Part shown: piece after piece, positions 34,120 to 48,869 of the stretch | Layout: every line of letters starts with the position of its first letter | Numbering within the stretch: the first letter of the stretch is position 1 | DNA from: Arthrobacter mangrovi | GTDB taxonomy: Bacteria; Actinomycetota; Actinomycetes; Actinomycetales; Micrococcaceae | DNA length: 64,000 nt | Assembly: GCF_026011795.1 (NCBI RefSeq) | Contig: NZ_BRVS01000011.1 | Location: forward strand, 1 to 64,000 | Reading direction: 5' to 3' | The notes under the pieces: model-generated | The model's input: only the letters and a program-made list of their open reading frames with translations | Databases searched by the model: none | Told to the model about the DNA's origin: nothing | Program-made: the position numbers and the translations under genes

Positions 34120-35160
34120 CTACTTGGTGCCGGTGTAGGGGACGCGCTCCCAGGTGAGGACCTCGTCCGTGGCGGCCGCGTTGGGGGCGACGGTGAAGCG
34201 CATCCACTCGTTGGACGTGGCGGCGCCCTCGACGGTGACGCGGTCCAGATTCCCGAGCGGCTGCTGTCCGTAGACCTCGAGCCAAGGCGAGCCGGCGGCC
34301 AGCGGCTGGTCGGCGTTGTAGGAGTGGCTGTCGCCGTTGATCAAGTAGACGGGGCCGCCGAAGGACCGCGCGCCGGCGGCGAGGGCGTCGACGATCGGGC
34401 GGAAGCCGGAGACCTGGTCCGGGTTTTCCTCGACGCCGTTGGCCAGCTGGAAGGGATCGAACATGTCCGCCTGGGTCATAACGACGACGGCGCGGGCGTT
34501 GGTGCGCCGGGCGTCGGCGAAGGTTTCCTGCAGCTGGGCGACGTCCGCGGCGGTGCGGGTAGCGACCTCATCGAGCTGCTCGTTGGTGGCCTCGGTGAGT
34601 CCGAGCCCGCTCCACGGCGCGAGCGAGTTGTTGGAGCCTTGGGTGTTGATGACGGAGAAGGCAGCGCGGTTCTTTCCGAAGGTGACGTTCTCCGGCAGGC
34701 CCAGGTGCGCCTGGGAATCCACCGGCATGGTGCCGCCGAGGGTCTTGCCCGGGTCGGCGAAGAACATGCCGCGCAGGGTGTCCAGGCGCTCCAGCGGGTT
34801 GTAGGAGCCGTTGTTGGCCCGGTGGCAGTCAACCCACTCGTTGTCGCCCGGCGTGTAGACCAGCGGGGCCTCGAAGCGGTCGAACTGCTCCTTGATGTTG
34901 GCGAAGTACTCGTCGGTGCACTGTGCGGAGCCGGCCTTGATGTCGCCAACGTGGGCGATGAAGCCCAGGTCGTCCTGCTGGTTGAGTTCGGAGACCATCT
35001 CCGGGAACTGTGCCACCTGGGCTTCGCCGTAGGGGACGTCGCCGATGACGCCGAAGGTGTAGGCATCATCGGCGGAGGCGAGCGCCGGTGCCGCCGCCAT
35101 CAACGAGGCGGTGGCGGCGACGGCCAGGGCGGAGGCGGCGGCGAGCAAGCGGGACTTCAT
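34120..35160 (-). CDS. Secreted calcineurin-like metallophosphoesterase
   Basis: A 346-residue protein with a Sec signal peptide (MKSRLLAAASALAVAATASL then LASADD). Metal-site elements are FGVIGDVPYG (Asp), FIAHVGDIKAG (Asp), VYTPGDNEWVDC (GDN) and LINGDSHSYN (His). This places it in the calcineurin-type phosphoesterase superfamily, exported to the cell surface or medium. ATG 35160 has GCAGGAG upstream. Its substrate, perhaps organic phosphates or nucleotides, is not evident. Three stacked hairpins lie after its stop. Confidence 0.85.
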   Translation of the reverse strand: MKSRLLAAASALAVAATASLMAAAPALASADDAYTFGVIGDVPYGEAQVAQFPEMVSELNQQDDLGFIAHVGDIKAGSAQCTDEYFANIKEQFDRFEAPLVYTPGDNEWVDCHRANNGSYNPLERLDTLRGMFFADPGKTLGGTMPVDSQAHLGLPENVTFGKNRAAFSVINTQGSNNSLAPWSGLGLTEATNEQLDEVATRTAADVAQLQETFADARRTNARAVVVMTQADMFDPFQLANGVEENPDQVSGFRPIVDALAAGARSFGGPVYLINGDSHSYNADQPLAAGSPWLEVYGQQPLGNLDRVTVEGAATSNEWMRFTVAPNAAATDEVLTWERVPYTGTK

Positions 35161-35300: not shown

Positions 35301-35786
35301 TCAGGCGCCGCCCGTGGCCGCGGCCGCCCCTTCGAAGTCCTCAAGCACCTGGACCTTCGCCGCCGAGGCGGAGGACGGGTCGAAGGTGTAGCCGATCCAC
35401 TCCTTGGCGAGCCGCCGGGCCAGTTCGAGGCCGATGACGCGCTGGCCCATGGTCAGGATCTGGCAGTTGTTCGAGAGCACGGAGCGCTCCACGGAGAAGG
35501 AATCGTGCGCGGTGGCCGCGCGGATGCCCTCGACCTTGTTGGCGGAGATGGCCACGCCCAGGCCCGTGCCGCAGAACAGGATGGCGCGGTCGGCGCGGCC
35601 GTCCCGGATGAGCTCGCCGGCGGCGATGCCGATGTACGGGTAGGGCTTGTTGAAGTCCTCGTCAGCGCGGTTGACGCCGATGTCGATGATTTCGCCCACG
35701 CGCGGGTCCTGCCGCAGGTCGGCCAGGATCTGGTCCTTGTAATCGACGCCGGCTTCGTCCGAGCCGAGGATGAGTCGCAGTGTCAT
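35301..35786 (-). CDS. derI: RpiB/LacAB-family sugar-phosphate isomerase, probable D-erythrulose 4-phosphate isomerase
   Basis: A 161-residue enzyme. LGSDEAGVDYKDQI, LFCGTGLGVAISANKVEGIRAA (catalytic Cys) and TMGQRVIGLELARRL are hallmarks of the RpiB fold, which interconverts aldose and ketose phosphates. It lies nine bases after the DAK-family kinase. That kinase/isomerase pair is known from mycobacterial erythrulose catabolism (DerK/DerI), where it makes erythrose 4-phosphate. A ribose- or other pentose-phosphate substrate is the main alternative. It is the last gene of a four-gene minus-strand operon. Confidence 0.75.
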   Translation of the reverse strand: MTLRLILGSDEAGVDYKDQILADLRQDPRVGEIIDIGVNRADEDFNKPYPYIGIAAGELIRDGRADRAILFCGTGLGVAISANKVEGIRAATAHDSFSVERSVLSNNCQILTMGQRVIGLELARRLAKEWIGYTFDPSSASAAKVQVLEDFEGAAAATGGA

Positions 35787-35795
35787 GGGAGGTCC

Positions 35796-37550
35796 TTACT
35801 TCGTTTGCGCGTTGGTAGTGGTGAAGCGGTCGACGACGGCGGCGGCCACCATCGCGAGGGACGTGGCGCCCGGGTCAGGGGTGCCGATGCTCTTTTCCGC
35901 CAGCGGCCTGGCGCGGCCCTTCTTCGGGATGAAGGCCGCCGTAGCCTCGGCGGCCGACGCGGCCGCGCGGGCGGCTTCGTGCCAGGCGGCCTGCGGGGCG
36001 GCGCCGTTGCCGGTGGCATCAACCAGGGTGCGGACGAGCGGCAGCAGGGCGTCCACGAGGGTCTTGTCGCCGGCTTCGGCCTTGCCCAGGGTGAGGATAC
36101 GGTTCGTGAAGGCCTGGGCCGCGGCGACGAGCCCGGCCGGTGAGGGGGCCGCCTCGTCGCCGAGGCTTTCCCCGGCGGCCCGCAGGCCACCGCCCCACAG
36201 GACGCCGGAGGTGCCGCCTGCCTTGGCCGCCCACGCGTCGCCCGCCGTGGCCAGCATGGTTCCGGCCCCCGCGCCGTTGTCGAGGGCGAGGACGGCGGCG
36301 TCGAACGCGGCGTCGATGCCGCGGACCATGCCGCGGCCGTGGTCGCCGTCGCCCGCGATGGCGTCCATGTCCCCGAGCCTGGATTCAGCCTCGTGGAGCG
36401 TCAGCCGCGCGGTTTCCAGCGCGGACATGCAATGCTGCGCGAACCGCCGGGATTCCTCGGAGGAGGCGGGGACCGGGGCGGCCGAAGCCTGCGCTTCGTC
36501 CGGCGCCGCCTCGGCAGCGTCCGTACTTTCGCCGCCCGCGGCTGCCGCGCCGGCCAGCGAGCCGCGGCGGAAGGCCGGGGTCTCCGCGGGGGCGGCCCAG
36601 AGCTGCTCGAGTTCGTCGTCCAGCCAGGTGACCGTGAGCGAGACGCCCGCCATGTCGAGGGAGGTCACGAGCTCGCCGACCTCGGGCAGGACCAGGGTGT
36701 GGCCGGCCTCGCGGAGCAGCGCCGAGACGGTCCGCCACAGCACGAAGAGTTCCTCATGCTTGGTGGAGCCTAGGCCGTTGAGGATGACGGCGAGCCGGGA
36801 GCCGCCCTCGACGGGTGCCTCGGCCAGCACGCGCCCGACGAGTTCCCGGGCCAGCTCCGCGGCGGAGGGCAGTTCGGTGTCGTGCAGCCCGGGTTCGCCG
36901 TGGATCCCGAGCCCGAGGCCCATCTGCCCGTCCGCGACCGTGAACAGCGGGGTGTCCGCGCCGGGGAAGGTGCAGCCGGCGAAGGCGGCGCCCATGGTAC
37001 GGGTGAGGCTGTTGGCCTTGCGCCCCAGCCGGACCACATCGTCGAAGCCCGCTCCGGCCTCGGCCGCGGCGCCCATGACCTTGAAGACCGTGAAGTCGCC
37101 GGCGATGCCGCGGCGCTTGTCGACCTCGCCCGCCGCCGCGGACGCGATGTCGTCCGTGACGATGACGTTCTCCACCCGGATGCCCTCGGCCGCCAGCCGC
37201 TCGGTGGCGAGGCCGAAGTTCATTACGTCGCCGGCGTAGTTGCCGTAGGTGAAGACGACGCCGCCGCCGGACTCGGCGGCCCTGGCCACCGAGTAGGCCT
37301 GCTGCGCGGACGGCGAGGTGAAGATGTTGCCCACCACGGCGCCGTCGGCAAAGCCCGGCCCGATCAGTCCGGCGAACGCTGGGTAGTGGCCCGAGCCGCC
37401 GCCGGGAATGACGGCCACCTTCGGCTGCGCCGGACGGTGCCGGCGGACGGCCCCGCCGTCGACCTGGCGCACCTGGTTCGGGTGGAGCTCGCAGAAGCCC
37501 TGCAGGGCCTCTTCGGCGAAGACGGCCGGGTCATTGAAGATTCTGGTCAT
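35796..37550 (-). CDS. derK: DAK1-DAK2 fused dihydroxyacetone/erythrulose kinase
   Basis: A 584-residue two-domain kinase. The N-terminal DhaK domain has IPGGGSGHYPAFAGLIG and GIHGEPG, whose His covalently holds the keto sugar. A linker rich in Ala/Glu near residues 335-365 leads to a DhaL domain with AIAGDGDHGRGM (Mg/ATP site) and GGTSGVLWGGGL. ATP-dependent DAK fusions phosphorylate dihydroxyacetone or tetruloses. With an RpiB-type isomerase next to it, D-erythrulose 4-kinase is the leading idea. Dihydroxyacetone kinase remains possible because a transketolase is also in the locus. The linker is longer than usual. Confidence 0.8.
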   Translation of the reverse strand: MTRIFNDPAVFAEEALQGFCELHPNQVRQVDGGAVRRHRPAQPKVAVIPGGGSGHYPAFAGLIGPGFADGAVVGNIFTSPSAQQAYSVARAAESGGGVVFTYGNYAGDVMNFGLATERLAAEGIRVENVIVTDDIASAAAGEVDKRRGIAGDFTVFKVMGAAAEAGAGFDDVVRLGRKANSLTRTMGAAFAGCTFPGADTPLFTVADGQMGLGLGIHGEPGLHDTELPSAAELARELVGRVLAEAPVEGGSRLAVILNGLGSTKHEELFVLWRTVSALLREAGHTLVLPEVGELVTSLDMAGVSLTVTWLDDELEQLWAAPAETPAFRRGSLAGAAAAGGESTDAAEAAPDEAQASAAPVPASSEESRRFAQHCMSALETARLTLHEAESRLGDMDAIAGDGDHGRGMVRGIDAAFDAAVLALDNGAGAGTMLATAGDAWAAKAGGTSGVLWGGGLRAAGESLGDEAAPSPAGLVAAAQAFTNRILTLGKAEAGDKTLVDALLPLVRTLVDATGNGAAPQAAWHEAARAAASAAEATAAFIPKKGRARPLAEKSIGTPDPGATSLAMVAAAVVDRFTTTNAQTK

Positions 37551-37583
37551 GGGAGTTCTTTCGGTCTGGGGAGCCGGAACCGG

Positions 37584-38357
37584 CTAGTGCAGGTGGCTTC
37601 CGCCGTTGATGTCGAACGTGGCGCCGGTCAGGTAAGCGGCGTCCTGGCTGGAGAGGAAGGTGATGACGGCGGCGACTTCCTCGGTGGTGGCGGTGCGGCC
37701 GAGCGGGACGTCGGCCGCGATGGCTGCCTCCAGTTCGGGGGTGGTGCCGACGCGAATGTTCGTGTCGACGGCGCCGGGCGTCACCGCGTTGACGGTGACG
37801 CCGCTGTCGCCCAGCTCGCGGGCCAGGGCCTTGGTGAAGCCGAGGATGGCTGCCTTGGCGGAGGAGTAGGGAACCTTGCCGAACACGCCGCCGCCGCGCT
37901 GCGCGGAGACCGAGGACATGTTGACGATGCGGCCCCACTTGTTCTCCAGCATCGCGGGCAGGAAGGCCTTCGTGACCAGGTAGGTGCCGGTGGCGTTGAC
38001 GGCCATGACCTTGTTCCAGAGGTCGAGCGTGGTCTCCAGGAACGGCACGGGCGAGGTGATGCCGGCGATGTTGGCCAGCGCCCCCACGGGAGGCAGGTTG
38101 CCGGCCCGGACTTCGGCGTCGACCGCGGCCTGGGCGGCGGCCACGGACGCTTCGCTGGTGACGTCGATTTCGTGGCCGAAGGCCGGGACGTTCAGCTCGT
38201 TGCCGATCGCGCGGGCAACCTTCGCGGACTTCTCGCCGTCGAGGTCGAGGATGACGATGGCCCAGCCCTCGCGGGCATAGCGGCGGGCGGTGGCCTCGCC
38301 GATGCCGCGCTCGGACGTGGCGCCGGTGACGACGGCGGTGCGCTGGATGGTGGTCAT
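37584..38357 (-). CDS. SDR-family polyol/sugar dehydrogenase
   Basis: A 257-residue classical short-chain dehydrogenase. The cofactor loop TGATSERGIG is unusual in having two extra residues before GIG. VILDLDG provides the acidic residue for NAD preference. NIAG, the Ser of VNMSSVS and Tyr/Lys of YSSAK complete the active site, and the C-terminus ends YLTGATFDINGG. In this operon it could oxidise a tetritol or related polyol to the ketose that the DAK kinase phosphorylates. That role is inferred from position. It lies 33 bases before the kinase gene. Confidence 0.85.
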   Translation of the reverse strand: MTTIQRTAVVTGATSERGIGEATARRYAREGWAIVILDLDGEKSAKVARAIGNELNVPAFGHEIDVTSEASVAAAQAAVDAEVRAGNLPPVGALANIAGITSPVPFLETTLDLWNKVMAVNATGTYLVTKAFLPAMLENKWGRIVNMSSVSAQRGGGVFGKVPYSSAKAAILGFTKALARELGDSGVTVNAVTPGAVDTNIRVGTTPELEAAIAADVPLGRTATTEEVAAVITFLSSQDAAYLTGATFDINGGSHLH

Positions 38358-38382
38358 GGTGTCTCCTTGGGTTGTTGCGTTG

Positions 38383-39210
38383 CTAGATGAGGTCCGAGAT
38401 GAAGGCGGCCGCCGCTGCGGCTGCCGCCGGGCGTTCGTCGTGGTCGACGTCGCGGGTTTCGAGTTCCAGGGAAAAGCGGCCGGTGTAGCCCTTGTCCGCC
38501 AGCGACTTCAGGCCGGCCGCGAAGTCCGCCTGGCCGTTGCCGATGCTGAGGTTGATGTTTCCGGGGACGGCATCGCGCAGGTGGACGTGCGCGATGCGCC
38601 CATGGAAGCGCTCCACGAAGTCCTCGGGGCTGCCGCCGGAGGCGACGATGTGGCTGAAATCCATGACGACCTGCACGTCCGTGCCGGCGAGCCGGTCGGT
38701 CAGCCGCTGCGCGCGTTCGGTGTCGTGGCAGAGGCGGAAGAAGTGCAGGGATTCGGTCCAGAGTCCGACGCCGGTCTCCGCCGCGCGCTCGCCGGCTACG
38801 GCGAGTTCGGCGGCGACGAGGTCGAGGTCCTGGTCCAGGGTGCCGAGGGGGTTGTTGTCCAGCGCGCCGCACGGCAGTACCAGCGCCTCCGCGGCGGTCT
38901 GCCCCGCGAGGGCGAGCAGCATGTCCAGGTGCCGGGAGCGCTGCGCCCGCTCTTCCGCGGAGAGCGGGCGGTTCAGGTCGCCGATGTCGCCGTTGATGGA
39001 GCGCACGCGCAGTCCGGAGGCGGCGACGATCCCTGCGACGGCGGTGACCGCCTGCTCGTCGAGGACGTAGGGCACGTGGTCGCACACGCCCGGCAGGGCA
39101 CCCAGATCGATCTCGGTGAAGCCGAGGCCGGCGATGGTGGCCAGCGCCGTGGCGAGGTCCTGGTGCCGAAAGCTGATGGTGGAGCAGCCCAGCCGCGAAT
39201 GGAAGGTCAT
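38383..39210 (-). CDS. TIM-barrel sugar isomerase/epimerase (AP endonuclease family 2)
   Basis: A 275-residue barrel protein starting MTFHSRLGCSTISFRHQDL. Typical metal-site strands are GLGFTEIDLGALPG, GLWTESLHFFRL, VQVVMDFSHIVASGGSPE, HVHLRDAVPGNINLSIGNG and FSLELETRD, which carry the Glu, Asp, His and Glu ligands of the xylose-isomerase-like superfamily. It is first in the minus-strand operon, directly behind the operator region. It may isomerise or epimerise the C4/C5 ketose or its phosphate. A run of alanines in the C-terminus (residues 260-270) is a benign local expansion. Confidence 0.82.
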   Translation of the reverse strand: MTFHSRLGCSTISFRHQDLATALATIAGLGFTEIDLGALPGVCDHVPYVLDEQAVTAVAGIVAASGLRVRSINGDIGDLNRPLSAEERAQRSRHLDMLLALAGQTAAEALVLPCGALDNNPLGTLDQDLDLVAAELAVAGERAAETGVGLWTESLHFFRLCHDTERAQRLTDRLAGTDVQVVMDFSHIVASGGSPEDFVERFHGRIAHVHLRDAVPGNINLSIGNGQADFAAGLKSLADKGYTGRFSLELETRDVDHDERPAAAAAAAAFISDLI

Positions 39211-39280
39211 GGGGTCCCTTTTAGGAAGTCGGAACGGGTGGAGCAGTGTTGTGACGCGAACCACGTTAGAGCAGTCGACT

Positions 39281-39377
39281 GTTGACAGTCAACGGTTGAA
39301 GAAATTTTCTGTCGACTGTTGACAGATGCGAGTGGCGCGGCTCACACTGTTTGGCATATCCTGTTGACTGTCAACAG
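39281..39377. promoter_or_regulatory. Three GntR-type operators in the divergent sugar promoter
   Basis: GTTGAC-A-GTCAAC at 39281-39293 and CTGTTGAC-T-GTCAACAG at 39361-39377 are perfect palindromes. A half-site ACTGTTGACAG is at 39315-39325. They lie between the isomerase operon and the transporter gene. The same motif precedes the gntR gene at 42873-42901. Confidence 0.85.
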
Positions 39378-39425
39378 TGACGGAGGTTTCCTCCAGCCTC
39401 CGCCATCGCTTCGAAAGGTAATTCG

Positions 39426-40766
39426 ATGAGCAACGAAGCCCTGACAATGCGCGGCCCCGTTCACGGCACAAAGGACGCCAAGCGCGTCGCCATCGGCTCC
39501 GGAGTTGGCGCCGTTATCGAAACGTACGACTTCATTGGCTTCGGCACCGCCGCGGCCCTGTACTTCGGCACCGCCTTCTTCCCGGGCGGCGACCCCCTCA
39601 CCGGCACCCTGGCGGCGTTCGCGACCCTCGGCGTCGGCTTCGCGGCCCGCCCGCTGGGCGGCATCATCGGCGGGCACCTCGGCGACCGGATCGGACGCAA
39701 GCCGGTGCTGGTCTCCTCGCTGATCCTCATGGGTTTGGCCACCTTCGCCATCGGCCTGCTGCCGACCTACGCGCAGGTCGGCCTCCTGGCTCCGGCGCTG
39801 CTGGTCACCGTCCGAGTCATCCAGGGCCTGGCCTTCGGCGCCGAGTGGGGCGGGGCCATCCTGATGAGCTACGAGCACGCGCCCTGGAAGCAGAAGGGCA
39901 AGTACACCGGCATCGTGCAGGCCGGCTTCCCGGTGGGCCTGCTCCTGGCCAATCTCGTCTTCCTCTTCAGCGTGCATCTGGGCAACGAGTGGGCCTGGCG
40001 CGTGCCGTTCCTGGCCAGCATCATCCTGGTCGCGGTGGGCCTGATCATCCGCTCCAAGGTGCCCGAGTCCCCGGTCTTCGAGGACGTCAAGGAACACGGC
40101 GACATCGTGAAGTCCCCGATCGTCGAGGTCATCCGCGACGACTGGCGCAACATCGTGCGCGGCATCGGCCTGCGCATCGCGGAGACCGCCGGCTACGCCG
40201 TGTCCGTCACTTACATGATTTCCTACCTGCACAACTCCGGGCTGGCCGACAAGACCCAGACCCTGGTCGCGCTGTGCATCGCCTCCGGCATCGGCATCTT
40301 CGCCACCATGGCCTGGGGCCGCCTGACGGACAAGGTGGGCCGCCGCCCGGTCTACATCGCCTCCACCGCGTTCGCCGTCCTCTTCGGCGTCCCGATGTTC
40401 CTGCTGGTCAACACGGGCCTGTTCCTCTTCATCATCGCCACCATCGTGATCTCCTACGCGGTCTGCCAGAACTCGCTGGCCGGTGCCCAGGGCGCCTGGT
40501 TCCCCGAGCTGTTCCAGGCCAAGACCCGCTCGACGGGCGCCTCGCTGGCCTACCAGATCTCGGCGATGGTCTCCGGCTTCACCCCCTTCATCACCACCCT
40601 GCTGTTCGTGGCCCTGGGCTGGGTCGGACCGGCGCTGCTGTTCAGCCTCTACGGCGCCATCGGCCTGTGGGCCGCGCTGGCAACCCGCGAAACCTGGGGC
40701 CCCCGGGAGCGCCGCCTGGCCGCGGAGGCCGCGGCGACCACCAAGCCGGCCAAAGTGACCGCCTGA
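39426..40766 (+). CDS. MFS transporter, metabolite:H+ symporter (MHS/ProP-ShiA) type
   Basis: A 446-residue carrier with about 12 helices. GVGAVIETYDFIGFGTAA, RPLGGIIGGHLGDRIGRKPVL, RVIQGLAFGAEWGGAILMSYEHAP and the second-half motif GRLTDKVGRRPVY are signatures of the MHS branch of the major facilitator superfamily. It is expected to import an organic solute with protons. Position points to the sugar, polyol or sugar acid used by the flanking enzymes. It is the first plus-strand gene after the three operators. A 140-base gap separates it from the transketolase genes. Confidence 0.87.
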   Translation: MSNEALTMRGPVHGTKDAKRVAIGSGVGAVIETYDFIGFGTAAALYFGTAFFPGGDPLTGTLAAFATLGVGFAARPLGGIIGGHLGDRIGRKPVLVSSLILMGLATFAIGLLPTYAQVGLLAPALLVTVRVIQGLAFGAEWGGAILMSYEHAPWKQKGKYTGIVQAGFPVGLLLANLVFLFSVHLGNEWAWRVPFLASIILVAVGLIIRSKVPESPVFEDVKEHGDIVKSPIVEVIRDDWRNIVRGIGLRIAETAGYAVSVTYMISYLHNSGLADKTQTLVALCIASGIGIFATMAWGRLTDKVGRRPVYIASTAFAVLFGVPMFLLVNTGLFLFIIATIVISYAVCQNSLAGAQGAWFPELFQAKTRSTGASLAYQISAMVSGFTPFITTLLFVALGWVGPALLFSLYGAIGLWAALATRETWGPRERRLAAEAAATTKPAKVTA

Positions 40767-40906
40767 ATCCGGACCCGAGCAGGCGCAACCGCCACGTCCT
40801 CCAGGACCGGTAAGCGCCCGATCTTCCTCAACCCGAGCCGCGCCGGGGCGGGACCTACCGCCCGCCCCGGCGCCACGCCGTCGTACTTTTCCCGAAAGGA
40901 AATCCT

Positions 40907-41815
40907 GTGACCATCACCGAAACCGTCCGCGCTCCCGAGACTGCGTCATTGCAGGAACGGGTGGCACGCGTCGAAGCCGCGGCCTACCGGATGCGCCACC
41001 ACGTGCTGAACATGGGCGAGGCGCAGGGGCAGGGCTACGTGGGCCAGGCGCTCGACGCGGCCGACGTCCTCGCCGCGGTCTACGCCGACCAGCTGCGCTA
41101 CCGGGCCGAGGACCCGGAGTGGGAGGGGCGGGACCGCTTCCTGCTCTCCACCGGACACTACGCGATCGGCCACTACGCCGCGCTGGCCGAGGCCGGGATC
41201 GTCCCGGTCGACGAGCTGGAGACGTACGGCTCGGACGATTCGCGGCTGCCGATGTCCGGCATGTCCACCTACACCCCCGGGATGGAAATTTCCGGCGGCT
41301 CGCTCGGGCACGGCCTGACCATCGCCGTGGGCACCGCGCTGGGCCTGCGCCTGCAGGGCTCCGGCGCCCGCGTGTTCAACTTCCTCTCCGACGGGGAACT
41401 GGACGAGGGTTCCACCTGGGAAGCCGCGATGGGCGCGCACCACCACCAGCTGGGCAACCTGACCGCGATCGTGGACATCAACGCCCTGCAGGCCGACGGC
41501 AAGACCGACACGGTGCTGCGGACCGAGCCGGTGCTGGACAAGTGGGCGGCGTGCGGCTGGTTCGTGCAGCGCGTGGACGGCAACGACGTCGGGGCCCTGC
41601 TGGCCGCCTTCGACTCGGCCGCCGCCAAGGCCGAGGCCGAGGGCAAGCCGTCAGTCATCCTGTGCGACACCAAGGTCGGCCGCGGCGTGCCGCTGCTCGA
41701 AGACCGGGAGAAGGCGCACTTCATGCGCATCGATGAACACGAATGGCAGATCTGCCGCGAGCAGCTGACCGCCGGGTACGAAGCCCGCACCGCATCCGAA
41801 GGAGAATCCAAGTGA
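40907..41815 (+). CDS. Transketolase, N-terminal (thiamine diphosphate) subunit
   Basis: A 302-residue protein equal to the first domain of transketolase. YVGQALDAADVLAAVY, STGHYAIGHYAALAEAG and GSLGHGLTIAVGTALGL are conserved. SDGELDEGSTWEAAM and IVDIN form the ThDP/Mg motif. In split transketolases the second polypeptide supplies the pyrimidine-binding and C-terminal domains; it follows here with a GTGA overlap. The pair would move two-carbon units, for instance consuming erythrose 4-phosphate made by the divergent operon. It is dedicated to this locus and is not the main pentose-phosphate enzyme, by inference. Confidence 0.88.
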   Translation: MTITETVRAPETASLQERVARVEAAAYRMRHHVLNMGEAQGQGYVGQALDAADVLAAVYADQLRYRAEDPEWEGRDRFLLSTGHYAIGHYAALAEAGIVPVDELETYGSDDSRLPMSGMSTYTPGMEISGGSLGHGLTIAVGTALGLRLQGSGARVFNFLSDGELDEGSTWEAAMGAHHHQLGNLTAIVDINALQADGKTDTVLRTEPVLDKWAACGWFVQRVDGNDVGALLAAFDSAAAKAEAEGKPSVILCDTKVGRGVPLLEDREKAHFMRIDEHEWQICREQLTAGYEARTASEGESK

Positions 41816-42831
41816 CCGCGACTACTGCAGCCGGACCCACCGTGAAGACCGCGCCGAAGCCGAAGCTGAAGACCTCGGCCATGATCGCTTCCTTCGCCGA
41901 CCCCGGCCAGAAGACCACACCGGCTCCGTTCGGCCACGCCCTGGTCAAGGCCGCGCAGGAGAACGAGAAGATCGTCGGGCTGACCGCCGACCTGGGCAAG
42001 TACACGGACATGCACATCTTCGCCAAGGCCTTCCCGGAGCGGTTCTTCCAGATGGGCATGGCCGAGCAGCTGCTCTTCGGCGCGGCCGCCGGCATGGCGC
42101 AGACCGGTGTGGTCCCGTTCGCCTCGACCTACTCGGTGTTCGCCGCGCGCCGGGCCTACGACTTCCTTTGCCTGGACGCCGCGGAGCCGAACCTGAACGT
42201 GAACATCGTCGGCGGGCTGCCCGGCCTGACCACCGGCTACGGGCCGTCCCACCAGGCCACCGAGGACATGGCCATTTTCCGCGGCATGCCGAACCTGACC
42301 ATCGTGGACCCCTGCGACTCGGTGGACATTGAACAGGCGGTGCCGCAGCTCGCCGCGAGCGAGGGGCCGACCTACCTGCGCCTGCTGCGCGGCAACGTGC
42401 CCACCGTGCTGGACGAGTACGACTACACGTTCGAACTGGGCAAGGCCAAGGTGCTGCGCGGCGGCAACGACGTGGTCTTCGTCTCCAGCGGGCTCATGAC
42501 CATGCGGGCACTGCAGGCAGCCAAGGAACTCGCCGCGCACAACGTCGATGTCGCCGTGGTCCACACGCCGACCATCAAGCCGTTCGACGCCGAGACCGTC
42601 CTGGGCGAAATCAACACCGACCGGCTGGTGGTGACCCTGGAGAACCACACCGTGGTCGGCGGCCTGTTCGAAACCGTCGCCGCGGCCGCCGCCCGCGCCG
42701 GGGTCGCCAAGCGCATCCTGCCCGTGGCCCTGCCCGACGAGTTCCTGCATGCCGGCGCCCTGCCGACCCTGCACGAACGCTACGGACTCTCCGTCGACCG
42801 CATCGTCGCGGCCGTCCTCGGCGCACTCTAG
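41812..42831 (+). CDS. Transketolase, C-terminal (pyrimidine-binding) subunit
   Basis: A 339-residue protein beginning at GTG 41812, which overlaps the stop of the N-subunit gene, so equimolar synthesis is likely. After a Lys/Pro-rich lead, the PYR domain shows ADLGKYTDMHIF, then QMGMAEQLLFGAAAGMAQTG with the ThDP-contacting Glu, and FASTYSVFAARRAYDF. A C-terminal ketoacid-binding-type domain follows (LGKAKVLRGGNDVVFVSSGLMTM). Related pairs include apulose-4-phosphate transketolase, so branched sugars are an alternative to tetrulose. The regulator gene follows after 99 bases. Confidence 0.88.
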   Translation: MTATTAAGPTVKTAPKPKLKTSAMIASFADPGQKTTPAPFGHALVKAAQENEKIVGLTADLGKYTDMHIFAKAFPERFFQMGMAEQLLFGAAAGMAQTGVVPFASTYSVFAARRAYDFLCLDAAEPNLNVNIVGGLPGLTTGYGPSHQATEDMAIFRGMPNLTIVDPCDSVDIEQAVPQLAASEGPTYLRLLRGNVPTVLDEYDYTFELGKAKVLRGGNDVVFVSSGLMTMRALQAAKELAAHNVDVAVVHTPTIKPFDAETVLGEINTDRLVVTLENHTVVGGLFETVAAAAARAGVAKRILPVALPDEFLHAGALPTLHERYGLSVDRIVAAVLGAL

Positions 42832-42872
42832 CGGGGCGGCATGGAGCTCGCACCGGCGACAGCCGTCCGACC

Positions 42873-42901
42873 GACTGTTAACATGGCAACTGTCAACAGT
42901 C
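42873..42901. promoter_or_regulatory. GntR autoregulatory operator GACTGTT...AACAGTC
   Basis: Arms GACTGTT (42873-42879) and AACAGTC (42895-42901) enclose a site with the half-site TGTCAACAG. It is the same motif as at 39361-39377. It lies inside the longest possible gntR frame, which argues for a downstream start at 42931. Confidence 0.75.
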
Positions 42902-42930
42902 TTGCTTCCAAGCGCCCGAGGATGAAAACG

Positions 42931-43590
42931 ATGGCTACAGAATCGATGTCGCTGCTGGGACTGGAAAAGACCAGCCTCCGGCAGCAGGCCCTGGCCGCCC
43001 TGCGCCGAGCCATCACCACCGGCGAGATCGCTCCCGGGACCCACTTGGTGGAAACCGAACTGTCCGAAACCCTGCAGATCAGCCGCGGCACCCTGCGGGA
43101 GGCCATGCGGCAGCTGCAGCAGGAAGGTCTGATTTCCGCCGGGCCGCGGGGCCGGCTGTCGGTCCGCCATCTGGATGCCAAGGAAATCTGCGACATCTTC
43201 GCCGTCCGGGCCGCGCTCGAGTCCCTGGCCGCGCGGGAGCTCTGCGCCCTGGAGGACCGCGCCCAGGTCATCAAGGAGCTGCGCCGGGCGCTGGAGGAGA
43301 TGGACCGGGCCAGCAAGGACGGGCTGGAGGAGCGGATCGAGGCGGACCTGAACTTCCACCGGACGCTCTGCGGCCTCACCGGCAATGAGACGCTGCTGCA
43401 CTCGTGGGGCTCGCTGGAAGGCAATATCCGCATGTCCATCATGTTTGCCGGCTTCGAACGCGCGGCCCAGAACATGAGCGTCAAGCGGCACGGCGAGATC
43501 GTGGACGCGATCGAAACCGGCGACGCGGCCAAGGCCAGCGAGGCGATCACCGAGCACATGGACGGTGCGGCCAAGGTCCTCGTCGGCTAG
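42931..43590 (+). CDS. GntR-family regulator (FadR/FCD type) of the sugar locus
   Basis: A 219-residue regulator. The winged helix is SLRQQALAALRRAITTGEIAPGTHLVETELSETLQISRGTLREAMRQL read in segments, and the C-terminal FCD domain has DIFAVRAALESLAARELC, DLNFHRTLCGLTGN and ITEHMDGA with metal-binding Asp/His positions. ATG 42931 has GAGGA eight bases upstream. The open frame back to 42841 contains the operator and is not expected to be translated. Shared palindromes put the divergent isomerase operon, the transporter and itself under this protein. The inducer is probably a sugar phosphate or acid. Confidence 0.88.
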   Translation: MATESMSLLGLEKTSLRQQALAALRRAITTGEIAPGTHLVETELSETLQISRGTLREAMRQLQQEGLISAGPRGRLSVRHLDAKEICDIFAVRAALESLAARELCALEDRAQVIKELRRALEEMDRASKDGLEERIEADLNFHRTLCGLTGNETLLHSWGSLEGNIRMSIMFAGFERAAQNMSVKRHGEIVDAIETGDAAKASEAITEHMDGAAKVLVG

Positions 43591-43645: not shown

Positions 43646-44332
43646 CTACTTCGCCGGGGCGGAATCCGCGCTGAGGTGTTCCAGCAGTTCGGCCTCGGCC
43701 TGGTCCATGTAGCCGCGCAGCGTGTCGGCCGCCTCTTCCCGGCGCCCGGCCGCGAGCAGCGCCACAAGCCGGGCGTTCTGCTCCACGTAGTGGCTATGGA
43801 AATCCGGGGTCCGGCTCATGGTGTGGAAGACCAGGCGCATCTGGGCCAGCACCCGGGTCATCAGTTCCTGCAGCAGCTTGCTGCCGGTGCCGCGGATCAG
43901 GGTTTCATGGAAGCGCTGGTTGGCGCCGGCCATCTCGGCGATGTCGCCCCGTTCCCGGGCGTCCCGGGCATCCGCGACAATCGCCGCCAGCGCATCCACG
44001 TCCACGTCCTCGCCCCAGCGGACCGCGGCAGGCTCGAGGATCCGCCGCACGCTGTAGATCTCGCGTACGCCCTCGGGGCCGGGCGAGGTCACGATGACGC
44101 CGCGGTTGGGGATGCGCGTGACAACGTGTTCGCCGGCGAGGACGGTGAAGGCCTCGCGCAGCGTGTTGCGGGAGACCCCGAAGGACGTGGCCAGCGCCTG
44201 CTCGGACAGCTTGGAGCCGGGCAGCAGCTGGCCCTCCGCGATGCGGATGCGCAGCGACTCGGCCACCCAGGCCGCGGTGTGCGCATGCGTCGCCTCGCTC
44301 CGGGCGGCGATCCCCGTCAGCGGTGCGTTCAT
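43646..44332 (-). CDS. GntR-family regulator (FCD type), probable controller of the 5-oxoproline locus
   Basis: A 228-residue regulator. Winged helix AESLRIRIAEGQLLPGSKLSE, QALATSFGVSRNTLREAF and NRGVIV are followed by an FCD domain with REIYSVRRILEPAAVRWG, ANQRFHETLIRGTGSK and YVEQNARLVALLAAG. It lies downstream of the biotin carboxylase gene on the same strand, behind a long hairpin. Family habit and location suggest it reads the three ATTGTTCAACAAT-type sites between pxpA and the NRAMP-like gene. Proof would need binding data. It converges on the other GntR gene with a 55-base gap. Confidence 0.85.
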   Translation of the reverse strand: MNAPLTGIAARSEATHAHTAAWVAESLRIRIAEGQLLPGSKLSEQALATSFGVSRNTLREAFTVLAGEHVVTRIPNRGVIVTSPGPEGVREIYSVRRILEPAAVRWGEDVDVDALAAIVADARDARERGDIAEMAGANQRFHETLIRGTGSKLLQELMTRVLAQMRLVFHTMSRTPDFHSHYVEQNARLVALLAAGRREEAADTLRGYMDQAEAELLEHLSADSAPAK

Positions 44333-44383
44333 CCGTTCGTCCCATCCCTCGCCGGTCGAACCGGGCCTGCAATTGCGGATCTG

Positions 44384-44433
44384 TTGGCCCGTAATGGCTG
44401 GATAGGGCGGCCTATCGAGCCATTACGGGCCAA
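44384..44433. terminator. 50-base near-perfect hairpin between the biotin carboxylase and gntR genes
   Basis: TTGGCCCGTAATGGCT at 44384-44399 pairs fully with 44418-44433. After one G-G mismatch, GATAGG at 44401-44406 pairs with CCTATC at 44411-44416 around loop GCGG. No T tract follows on either strand. It may be a factor-assisted terminator, RNA-processing site or operator. Confidence 0.65.
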
Positions 44434-44459
44434 TCGTTTGAGGCGCGGCCAGGGGCCGG

Positions 44460-46189
<1,730 letters not shown>

Positions 46190-46193
<4 letters not shown>

Positions 46194-47977
46194 GCGCGGT
46201 ACCTTTCCGGCGGGTTCGAAGTGCCGGCACTGCCGGCGGGAAGCAGGGTGTCCGGGTCGACCAGGACGAAGCGGACGGTGCTGCCGGGCGGCAGCTGGGC
46301 CACCACCGGCAGGTCCTCGGGAACCACGGCGGCAATAACGGGGTAGCCGCCCGTGACGGGATGGTCGGCCAGGAACAGCACGGGCAGCCCGGACGGCGGG
46401 ACCTGCAGGGCTCCGGCCACGGTGCCCTCGCTTTGGAGCTCGCCGTCCCGGATGCGCTCCAGCGGCGCGGGCGTTTCCGCAGGGGCGCCGCCCGTCGGCG
46501 TTCCGTTGCTGCCGCCGGCCGGAGCCCCGCCGCCCGGCAGTTCCAGGCGTACGCCGATCCGGTCCGAGGCCGAGCCGGATACCCAGTCCTGTCCGGTGAG
46601 CCGGTCGAGCCCGGCCTGGCCGAACCAGTCGTCGCGGGGGCCGGGCGTGATGCGCAGCAGCGCGGTTTCGCCGGGGCAGACCCGCAGGACGGGCGGTTCC
46701 GGTGTGCCGACCACGTGCCCGCTGCCGGCGTGGCCCACCGGCAGGATGAAGCCGGCCTCCATCGGCGCGGGTCCCAGTCCGGACAACGTGTCGGTGGAGC
46801 GGCTCCCCAGCTCCGCGGCGAGTTCGATCCCGCCGCGGACGGCGACATATGCCCGGAGCCCGGCGGTCGCCGGTCCGAGGGACAGGGTCTCGCCGTCGAG
46901 CAGGGCGAAGGGCGCGTCCTGCGCCGGACGACGTCCGGACGGCGCGATGTCCAGCTGCACGCGTGCACCGGTGACCGCTAGGACCTGGTCACCGCAGGCC
47001 CGCAGGGCCAGCGAGCCGAAGAGATTCTCGACGACGGCGTCCCCGGGGGAGTTGCCGGCCAGCCGGTTCGCCTGGCGTGCGGCCGGCACGTCGAGCGCAC
47101 CGGAGCTGCCGACGCCGAGGTTGCCCATGCCCGGCCGGCCCAGGTCCTGCACCAGCGACTGCAGGCCGGTGGAAACCACCTCGAGCGAGCCGGCGGTGTG
47201 CGGCTGCGGGGGAGCCGGCTCCTCCTCGACGGGGCCGGCGGGGACCGGGCGGGACCCGGCCAGGATGGCATCGGCAGGCCGGGCCGGTCCTGCAGGTTCG
47301 GCTGACCCGGCAGAGCCTGCTGGTTCCGCGGAACCAGCCGACACCGCCAGGCCGAGCGACTCCCGCACGGCCGTGAAGCGGACCAGGTCCTGCGGCCGGA
47401 TCAGCGCCGGATCCGGCCGGGCGACGTCCCACAGCACGCTCTCGGTGCGTCCGATCAGCTGCCAGCCGCCCGGCGACTTGCGCGGATAGACGGCGGAGTA
47501 TCCGCCGGCCAGGGCCACCGCGCCGGCCGGGACGGCGGTCCGCGGCGTGGCGCGCCGCGGCACCTCGAGCGAGCCGTCCTCGCCCGTGAGGTAGGCAAAG
47601 CCGGGGGCGAAACCGCCGAAGGCGGCGGTCCAGACCTGCCCGGTGTGGGCGTTGACCACACCCTCGGGGCTGAGGCCGGTGAGACGCGCCACCTCGGCGA
47701 GGTCCTCGCCGTCGTACGTCACGGGAATTTCAACGGTTTTCCCCGTCCCGGCGGGGGCGTGCTCCAGTTCCAGCCGTTCGACGGCGGTCCTCGCCGCGAC
47801 CGCGTGGGCGCGGGTGTCGCACTGGACCAGCACGGTGGAGGCCGCGGCCAGCACATCGAGCTGGCCGGGCAGCGGGTCGGCGGTCAGCCGGGCATGCAGG
47901 GCGAGCACGGAGTCCAGGCCGGAGAGCTCGACCAGCAGCGCGCGCGGCCCGGCAAACCGGACGGCGGTCACGCTCAC
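46190..47977 (-). CDS. pxpBC: Fused 5-oxoprolinase subunits PxpB-PxpC (KipI-KipA)
   Basis: A 595-residue fusion. The PxpB (KipI/allophanate hydrolase subunit 1) part has [16 protein letters not shown], and the segment [20 protein letters not shown] is followed by [14 protein letters not shown] flexible repeat of Ser-Ala-Glu-Pro-Ala-Gly near residues 213-232 links it to the PxpC (KipA) part with [19 protein letters not shown] and [15 protein letters not shown]. PxpABC hydrolyses 5-oxoproline to glutamate with ATP. Most bacteria encode B and C separately. GTG 47977 overlaps the pxpA stop, and the end overlaps the biotin carboxylase gene. Confidence 0.88.
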
Positions 47978-48732
47978 GCAAAACTCCGGACCGTCACGCC
48001 GGCGGACTCGAGCCCGGCCCGCACGGCCGCCGCCATTGCGACCGAGCCCGGGGTGTCGCCGTGGACGCAGATGCTCTCGGCGTCCACCCTGATGATGGAG
48101 CCGTCGATGGCCGTAATCTTGCCGGTCTGGGCCAGCCGCACCATGTTGGCGACGACGAGGTCCGGATCGTGGAGGACGGCCCCCGGCTCGCGGCGCGAGA
48201 CCAGCGTGCCGTCCGGGTTGTAGGCGCGGTCGGCGAAGGCCTCGGCAACGCCGCGAAGTCCGGCGGCCGCGGCCCTCGCCAGCGCCACCGAGCCCGGGAG
48301 CAGGAGCAGCGGCAGGTCCCCGCCGAAGGCACGCACGGCATCGACTACGGCCTGGGCATGTGCCTCGTGGTGGACGATCGTGTTGTAGAGGGCGCCGTGC
48401 GGCTTGACGTAGCGGATCCGCGCTCCGGCGGCCTGGGCCAGCGCCTGCAGGGCACCGAGCTGGTAGAGCACGTCATCCGCCAGTTCCGTGGGGGAGCAGT
48501 CGAGGAAACGCCGCCCGAAGCCCGCGAGGTCCCGGTAGCCCACGTGGGCGCCGATGGTCACTCCGGCGGCCACCGCGTCGCGGCAGGTTCCGGCGATCGT
48601 GCTCGGGTCCCCGGCATGGAAACCGCAGGCCACGTTGGCGCTGGAGACGGAGCGGAAGATTGCCGCGTCGTCGCCCATTTCCCAGTTGCCGAAGGATTCT
48701 CCGACGTCGCTGTTGAGGTCGATAATAGCCAT
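47974..48732 (-). CDS. pxpA: 5-oxoprolinase subunit A (LamB/YcsF family)
   Basis: A 252-residue protein with the full YcsF set of motifs: [47 protein letters not shown] and [10 protein letters not shown]. These form the TIM-like barrel that opens the pyroglutamate ring together with PxpBC. ATG 48732 starts MAIIDLN; the open frame upstream runs through the operators and is not coding. It leads an operon of pxpA, pxpBC and biotin carboxylase genes tied by four-base overlaps, divergent from the NRAMP-like gene. Confidence 0.92.
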
Positions 48733-48785
48733 GTGTGACACCCGTCTCGTTGGTTTCCTGTTTCCAGCATGCACCACATTCCAGG

Positions 48786-48869
48786 ATTGTTCAACAATCG
48801 CTAGCGGCCGGGGCTGACGCCCGGCACCCCTCTTTGTTGAACAATTTCTTGCCAGCATTGTTCAACAAC
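48786..48869. promoter_or_regulatory. Three ATTGTTCAACAAT-type operators in the pxpA/NRAMP divergent promoter
   Basis: A perfect palindrome ATTGTT-C-AACAAT lies at 48786-48798. Copies differing at one position occur at 48833-48845 (opposite orientation) and 48857-48869. Their number and divergent placement point to a dedicated regulator, probably the GntR at 43646. Confidence 0.85.

Follow-up and report, generated by a model that had tools for sequence, protein, structure and literature searches.

In Mycolicibacterium smegmatis, the erythritol and threitol pathways (DerK/LerK, LerI, and DerI) employ a DAK fusion kinase and then an isomerase of the RpiB family, with erythrose 4-phosphate as the expected product, and tetritol loci of this type are defined by an ATP-binding cassette (ABC) importer and a polyol dehydrogenase. 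The D-apiose transketolase AptAB, as generally described, is a split transketolase encoded in a sugar catabolic locus and works on a phosphorylated ketose; SqwGH, the transketolase of the sulfo-transketolase route, likewise has two subunits. The DUF1537 pathway for L-threonate and D-erythronate (ltnD, otnK, otnI, denD, and otnC) degrades a sugar acid with a dehydrogenase resembling 3-hydroxyisobutyrate dehydrogenase (HIBADH) and a TIM-barrel isomerase. Here, we analyzed a locus at positions 35301-43590 of a 64,000-nucleotide window (the whole stretch of DNA under study; positions 1 to 64,000 of contig NZ_BRVS01000011.1) from Arthrobacter mangrovi, which combines elements of these systems around a split transketolase with a replaced phosphate site. 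Unlike the tetritol loci of M. smegmatis, it carries a metabolite/H+ symporter (MHS)-type transporter of the major facilitator superfamily (MFS) and a FabG-like short-chain dehydrogenase/reductase (SDR) instead of an ABC importer and a polyol dehydrogenase, its DAK-RpiB pair is optional, and its conserved core includes the split transketolase and a TIM-barrel enzyme. In our reading, to which we give a probability of about 40%, this is a GntR-controlled catabolic locus for an aldonate-type acid, probably with four or five carbons in a straight or branched chain.

The locus is organized as two divergent arms within a 4.4 Mb genome, and every gene that the initial annotation had recognized (RpiB, DAK fusion, SDR, TIM barrel, MHS, and split transketolase) was found where it had been placed. 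The left arm (minus strand) encodes an AP_endonuc_2 TIM-barrel protein of the isomerase/epimerase type (38383-39210; PF01261, 83.8 bits), a classical FabG-like SDR that likely oxidizes the imported acid (37584-38357; PF13561), and two accessory proteins, namely a DAK1-DAK2 fusion, likely a tetrulose or dihydroxyacetone kinase (35796-37550; PF02733, PF02734), and a DerI-like sugar-phosphate isomerase of the RpiB/LacAB family (35301-35786; PF02502, 134.5 bits). The right arm (plus strand) encodes the MHS-type transporter, likely an acid importer (39426-40766; TIGR00883), the thiamine-diphosphate domain subunit (N part) of the split transketolase (40907-41815; PF00456), the subunit with its pyrimidine and C-terminal domains (C part; 41812-42831; PF02779, PF02780), whose gene overlaps that of the N subunit by 4 bases, and the GntR/FCD regulator of the locus (42931-43590, within a reading frame open from 42841; PF00392, PF07729).

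The TIM-barrel protein served as the query for related loci in a collection with one genome per species, and the 80 best of its 117 relatives were taken, so that its presence in all 80 is by construction; the named relatives were mostly Arthrobacter and Pseudarthrobacter, followed by Mycolicibacterium and its kin. Orthologs were counted by BLAST on stop-to-stop frames with identity thresholds, loci at contig ends (e.g., L047, L048, L054, L056, L061, and L096) were kept in the counts, and the gene calls in unannotated loci, made by a simple GC-frame script, are rough. The SDR and GntR genes occurred in all 80 loci, MHS in 79, and both transketolase genes in 77, whereas DAK and RpiB occurred together in only 49 and were both missing from 24. 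DAK was found without RpiB in four loci (three run off contig ends and one is partial) and RpiB without DAK in three (one a fragment), leaving the pair absent or incomplete in 31/80, a few of which stop at contig ends. Because the core is near-constant and the pair is not, the conserved unit is the transporter, SDR, TIM barrel, transketolase, and regulator, with DAK-RpiB as an optional part. In Arthrobacter sp. SF27, the core is kept, DAK is gone, and a fragment of RpiB is left in the locus; a search of the rest of that genome at an E value of 1e-60 found no DAK fusion, only a DhaK with a DhaL-like neighbor. The TIM-barrel gene was present in 20 of 149 sampled genomes of the same family (E value, 1e-30) and this transketolase in 3 of 396 sampled genomes of the phylum (E value, 1e-80), each count including the genome under study, with two of the three transketolase carriers belonging to the same family and one to another family of the class. 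M. senegalense possesses a second, diverged set (MHS, 47% identity; transketolase subunits, 57% and 73%; SDR, 31%).

In the split transketolase, with E. coli numbering, the catalytic residues were kept throughout (H66 and H261 in 97/97 rows of the N subunit; E411 and H473 in 96/96 rows of the C subunit, from which row L043, with 49% coverage, had been dropped). All 97/97 rows of the N subunit have Y in place of H26 and S in place of H100, and in the C subunit the E. coli letter at R358, S385, H461, and D469 appeared in 0/96 rows, while R520 was kept in 96/96. The alignment is gappy around R358, S385, H461, and D469, where alignments differ in letters or gaps, and a recount in two alignments gave 0/96 in both. 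Both H26 and H461 have recognized roles in transketolase. A transketolase study assigns H100 to donor binding and describes R358, S385, D469, and R520 as affecting aldehyde substrates (PMC7661550). Among solved structures, the closest in sequence to the C subunit (231.9 bits) is the split transketolase of Carboxydothermus hydrogenoformans (6yaj), which has its domains divided in the same way and retains the four substrate-site letters R, S, H, and D that the window family lacks; R, S, and H were retained in both the Carboxydothermus and human transketolases in pairwise alignments. With five of six substrate residues replaced and only R520 kept, the window enzyme departs from a canonical sugar-phosphate transketolase, and the impression in the initial annotation that it is unusual was borne out at H100, R358, S385, H461, and D469 in every row checked. 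Judged from its residues, the split transketolase is a distinct subfamily with an altered substrate site. Its donor likely lacks a phosphate end, because the substrate-site residues are replaced while the catalytic ones stay. The same replacements do not favor the earlier suggestion that a dedicated transketolase clears erythrose 4-phosphate, and they would also set the enzyme apart from AptAB.

The C subunit matched 633 plasmid records at E values below 1e-5 and 189 below 1e-70, 182 of the latter with at least 60% identity. Nineteen plasmid loci, picked for variety among the 40 best, were examined, comprising 18 proteobacterial loci and one from Arthrobacter. An SDR with 40-46% identity to that of the window was encoded in 16/18 proteobacterial loci, and all 18 had a transporter, either of the tripartite ATP-independent periplasmic (TRAP) type (13 loci; 10 annotated, 3 by Pfam) or of the MFS type (5 loci; 4 annotated, 1 by Pfam). 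The set recurring across phyla is a TRAP or MFS transporter, an SDR, and the split transketolase. Because TRAP and MHS carriers mostly move carboxylates, the common substrate would most likely be an acid. An HIBADH-like protein accompanied the split transketolase in 9/18 loci (in Burkholderia on the opposite strand); six of these proteins, 63-100% identical to the Skermanella copy, showed 38-41% identity to YgbJ, the L-threonate dehydrogenase of E. coli, and 28-34% to GlxR, and the companion scored 314.1 bits in the NCBIfam L-threonate dehydrogenase model (cut-off, 350). Other companions were a D-2-hydroxyacid dehydrogenase together with a full-length transketolase in three loci (Skermanella, Azoarcus, and Microvirga), AP_endonuc_2 TIM barrels of another subfamily in Shinella and Photobacterium, a DAK relative in Shinella only (1/18), and an annotated ABC importer plus amidohydrolase in four rhizobial loci, where the one amidohydrolase scanned was a relative of L-fuconolactonase far under the cut-off. 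The full-length transketolase of the Skermanella module (L112:13989-15968) also lacks the E. coli R358 and S385 in an alignment. Naming the substrate from solved transport proteins was attempted and given up: the nearest solved TRAP receptors include 4p9k, 4pdd, and 4pdh, whose ligands are erythronate or pantoate, and the ABC receptor was too distant.

The SDR has a YSSAK motif at residue 164 and matched the GolD/DthD family weakly (144 bits versus a cut-off of 286). The AlphaFold2 model of the TIM-barrel protein is a confident barrel (predicted local distance difference test score, 87.6), and its top Foldseek matches, with template modeling scores of approximately 0.7-0.76, were IolE, YcjR, and ketose 3-epimerases; the 50 matches listed included inosose dehydratase IolE, 3-keto-glucoside 4-epimerase YcjR, and ketose 3-epimerases at 13-24% identity. 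The residues E156, D187, H213, and E252, invariant in 16 rows, may be metal ligands by analogy, and the model supports an isomerase, epimerase, or lyase acting on a keto sugar or keto acid, with no finer assignment. Identification as a hydroxypyruvate or 2-oxo-tetronate isomerase was rejected, as the similarity to Hyi and YgbM was at chance level and the NCBIfam scores fell far under the cut-offs.

The DAK-RpiB pair may have a different history from the core. RpiB scored 168.9 bits in TIGR02133 (cut-off, 168.2) and 139.5 in the rhizobial DerI model (cut-off, 240), and the DAK fusion scored 732.6 in NF011049 (cut-off, 492) and 342.4 in the glycerone kinase model (cut-off, 574.95). All four E. 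coli RpiB residues H10, H99, R133, and R137 are replaced, as they are in copies from polyol loci. In E. coli RpiB, H99 opens the sugar ring; if this role holds, its replacement would make an open-chain tetrulose phosphate a better substrate than ribose 5-phosphate. The DerK/DerI-like last step in the initial annotation is plausible, as RpiB departs from its E. coli counterpart at the same positions as the polyol-locus copies. Two further DAK-RpiB pairs exist in the same genome, both with sugar ABC importer genes. One (L124; own contig C8, 80000-95000) lies with DeoR, a protein resembling triose-phosphate isomerase (177 bits versus a cut-off of 293), ABC importer genes, and a Zn-alcohol-dehydrogenase-like protein, a gene content resembling a tetritol-type locus; the other (L125; own contig C4, 276000-291000) has ABC importer genes matching those of the Mycolicibacterium DAK locus L175 at 58-63%. 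In a tree of the window DAK, the DAKs of 20 of the 49 loci with both genes, and eight copies from outside the locus, 13 Micrococcales locus copies formed one group (100/99), and eight Mycobacteriales locus copies joined two non-locus Mycolicibacterium copies (100/97); the Arthrobacter locus DAKs did not group with the DAKs of ABC-importer loci in Mycobacteriales. The two non-locus Mycolicibacterium DAKs lie beside ABC importer genes, one also with a DeoR regulator and one with two weak SDR-family matches nearby, and neither the TIM barrel nor the MHS of this locus was found near them. Mean identities between Arthrobacter-type (n = 11) and Mycobacteriales (n = 8) loci were 56% for DAK, 60% for RpiB, and 64% for GntR, compared with 65-82% for the TIM barrel, SDR, MHS, and transketolase. 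Because of this tree grouping and the lower DAK and RpiB identity between the lineages, the sequences suggest that DAK-RpiB was recruited twice from polyol loci.

We infer the substrate, its chain length, and the reactions from the anatomy, conservation, and residue changes observed. The MHS-type symporter would import the acid, and oxidation of one of its hydroxyls by the SDR would yield an oxo acid that ends in a ketol, with the TIM barrel isomerizing, epimerizing, or decarboxylating around this step. An acceptor would then receive the two-carbon ketol that the split transketolase removes from this unphosphorylated oxo acid, and the remainder would be a small oxo acid: glyoxylate if the imported acid were C4, and hydroxypyruvate or tartronate semialdehyde if it were C5. 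Such a route would be the carboxylate equivalent of the sulfo-transketolase pathway. Where the optional pair is present, a part that has been decarboxylated to a tetrulose (or dihydroxyacetone) could be phosphorylated by DAK, and the DerI-like isomerase might turn the product into erythrose 4-phosphate. Two intermediates, 3-oxo-tetronate and 3-oxo-isoapionate, would each combine the features of a terminal ketol with those of a beta-keto acid; decarboxylation of the former to dihydroxyacetone would explain DAK only, and that of the latter to erythrulose would explain both DAK and RpiB. In its logic, the proposed pathway has its closest precedent in the sulfo-transketolase route (SqwGH with SqwI), whose transketolase acts, as proposed here, on a ketose carrying an acid group other than phosphate, cutting an unphosphorylated sulfonated ketose with glyceraldehyde 3-phosphate as the acceptor (PMC12890257). 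That route differs in its sulfonate substrate, in its occurrence in anaerobes, and in having no SDR or DAK in its described form, and it is likened to our locus by its described logic and not by sequence. A review of tartaric acid mentions a proposed transketolase cleavage of the keto acid 5-keto-D-gluconate (PMC7970118).

A broader scenario is conceivable, with the balance tipping against it, in which Arthrobacter relatives, Mycobacteriales, and many Proteobacteria share a widespread, undescribed "carboxy-transketolase" pathway: the divergent split transketolase would cut unphosphorylated keto acids derived from a sugar acid that is abundant in plants or soil, the DAK-RpiB pair having been added twice to recover a decarboxylated side product. 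If true, carboxylates would join phosphate and sulfonate sugars as transketolase substrates, a role would be found for genes that at present bear just the name "transketolase" or no annotation (189 plasmid records), and a substrate would be suggested for many TRAP and MFS transporters of soil and plant bacteria. The module of an SDR and a divergent split transketolase is apparently undescribed. Literature queries that paired transketolase with TRAP, SDR, sugar acid, or tetronate returned no description of the module, nothing joining "apulose" and "transketolase", and no instance of the phrase "split transketolase" ("split-gene" transketolase occurs), within a coverage that leaves out most subscription papers.

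Several observations weigh against the acid pathway. If the acid were C4, RpiB would have nothing to do; if it were a straight C5 acid, no single intermediate could supply both branches, since 4-oxo-pentonate would not decarboxylate. A sugar-phosphate acceptor fits poorly with an enzyme that has lost three of the four phosphate-site residues, and the order TIM-SDR-DAK-RpiB could also occur in a tetritol route. The MHS assignment rests on a model scored below its cut-off (TIGR00883, a metabolite/H+ symporter model and the best in NCBIfam, at 343.7 bits versus 443.45). In Proteobacteria, the SDR is absent beside the transketolase in 2/18 loci, those of Pantoea and Klebsiella aerogenes, which have an HIBADH-like gene and an MFS relative 47-48% identical to the window MHS; SDRs are also common, making one with 40-46% identity nearby weak evidence by itself, and in Pantoea, K. 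aerogenes, and Burkholderia the HIBADH-like protein is roughly as close to GlxR as to YgbJ. With respect to two recruitments, the polyol copy L125 of the same genome joins the Arthrobacter DAK group, if not strongly supported (90/83), and GntR is as divergent between the lineages as the TIM barrel, so that two events are not forced.

The initial annotation had read the locus as one for a C4 ketose or branched sugar; in the tetritol form of this reading, the SDR would produce D-erythrulose, DAK and RpiB (as DerK and DerI) would convert it to erythrose 4-phosphate, and the transketolase would consume this product. A study of M. smegmatis describes just such a conversion of tetritols via erythrulose to erythrose 4-phosphate (PMC12780249), and the adjacency of the DAK-RpiB pair to the SDR, the departures of RpiB from its E. 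coli counterpart that mirror polyol-locus copies, and the weak GolD/DthD match of the SDR noted above agree with it. Nevertheless, we consider this reading unlikely: the pair is missing or incomplete in the loci beyond the 49/80, Arthrobacter sp. SF27 keeps the core without a DAK fusion (though DhaK and its DhaL-like neighbor remain), the genome holds two other DAK-RpiB loci with ABC importers of their own, TRAP or MFS transporters serve 18/18 proteobacterial loci, where SDR and split transketolase recur, and the phosphate site of the transketolase is replaced. Tetritol catabolism thus fits the DAK-RpiB add-on and not the core, and a C4-ketose or polyol pathway at the core of the locus is not supported.

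Confining the acid to C4, of the erythronate or threonate type, would let the SDR form 3-oxo-tetronate, from which the transketolase would leave glyoxylate and a decarboxylation leak would supply dihydroxyacetone to DAK. Chemically, one and the same intermediate would then be a terminal ketol as well as a beta-keto acid; the HIBADH-like companion is nearest to L-threonate dehydrogenase, the 2-hydroxyacid dehydrogenase companions could reduce glyoxylate, and the nearest solved TRAP receptors, with erythronate or pantoate as ligands, would be in line with such an acid. RpiB, however, is left unexplained, and the likeness to the DUF1537 pathway does not extend to its other enzymes, as the TIM barrel is not OtnI (20% identity over 187 residues; E value, approximately 0.04) and the nine window proteins scanned included neither OtnK nor OtnC, and no DUF1537 kinase or class II aldolase, a check confined to these nine, with the flanks of other loci mostly not searched for families and a DUF1537 gene in the flank of L070. 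We consider this narrower version rather unlikely. An apiose-type route, in which DAK would produce apulose 4-phosphate and the split transketolase would act like AptAB, appears improbable: it would account for a split transketolase and a kinase in one locus, as in the apulose route, and for a TIM-barrel enzyme, but DAK was not found in 27/80 related loci or in 17/18 proteobacterial loci (other kinase types were not searched for), and the phosphate-site residues are replaced. We also considered the transketolase and DAK-RpiB as alternative outlets, as 80/80 loci have one or both, complete or partial; this was rejected because approximately one locus without both would be expected by chance anyway and because L028 and L049 have the transketolase at another place in their genomes (73% and 90% identical). 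Among the three loci without the transketolase, only the 2.5 Mb metagenome-assembled genome L070 had none of this subfamily.

The regulatory region was compared across the same loci. Two perfect GTTGACNGTCAAC sites lie at 39281-39293 and 39363-39375 in the promoter region shared by TIM and MHS, with weaker sites at 39274 and 39311, forming an operator region common to both divergent arms (39271-39380). Within the window alone, four sites with at most two mismatches against 1.78 expected were not unusual (reached by 10/100 shuffles). Across related loci, 63/79 have a site with no more than one mismatch upstream of TIM, against 0.25 loci expected from two-base-block shuffles of the stretch of approximately 430 bases ending at the TIM start, and two sites were found in 22/79; the operator lying between the two arms is genuine and has been conserved. 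Degenerate half sites (42875-42899) precede the regulator gene and sit in the opening codons of the annotated GntR frame. No site within two mismatches was found at the DAK-RpiB end, where the nearest, at 34821, is past the operon. The claim that one operator type frames all of the genes therefore stands for the TIM/MHS region, holds in degenerate form before GntR, and fails at the DAK-RpiB end. GntR autoregulation is weakly supported, because only 3/79 loci have a site with at most one mismatch near the GntR start, in a stretch that was roughly set. The GntR start is probably the ATG at 42931 (or 42922) rather than 42841, because the longer frame would have operator-like half sites among its first 20 codons, and the TIM start was corrected to approximately 39210, matching a conserved MFH/MTFH start.

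Some neighboring arrangements deserve mention. In the Microbacteriaceae genome L070, a TRAP permease, a DRL-family oxidoreductase, a GntR-lookalike regulator, and a DUF1537 kinase, nearest to D-threonate kinase and far under the cut-off of that model, adjoin the locus (L070:749-8089). In Pseudarthrobacter enclensis NIO-1008, the split transketolase lies apart from the locus (L173:1800-7885), where its neighbors are another FCD regulator and an importer whose binding protein belongs to family 3. In the window itself, the next gene (43646-44332, minus strand) encodes a second GntR/FCD regulator, which was not counted into the locus; it opens a cluster (43646-48858) continuing by eye with lookalikes of biotin carboxylase, allophanate hydrolase, and LamB/YcsF, which may be 5-oxoprolinase genes.

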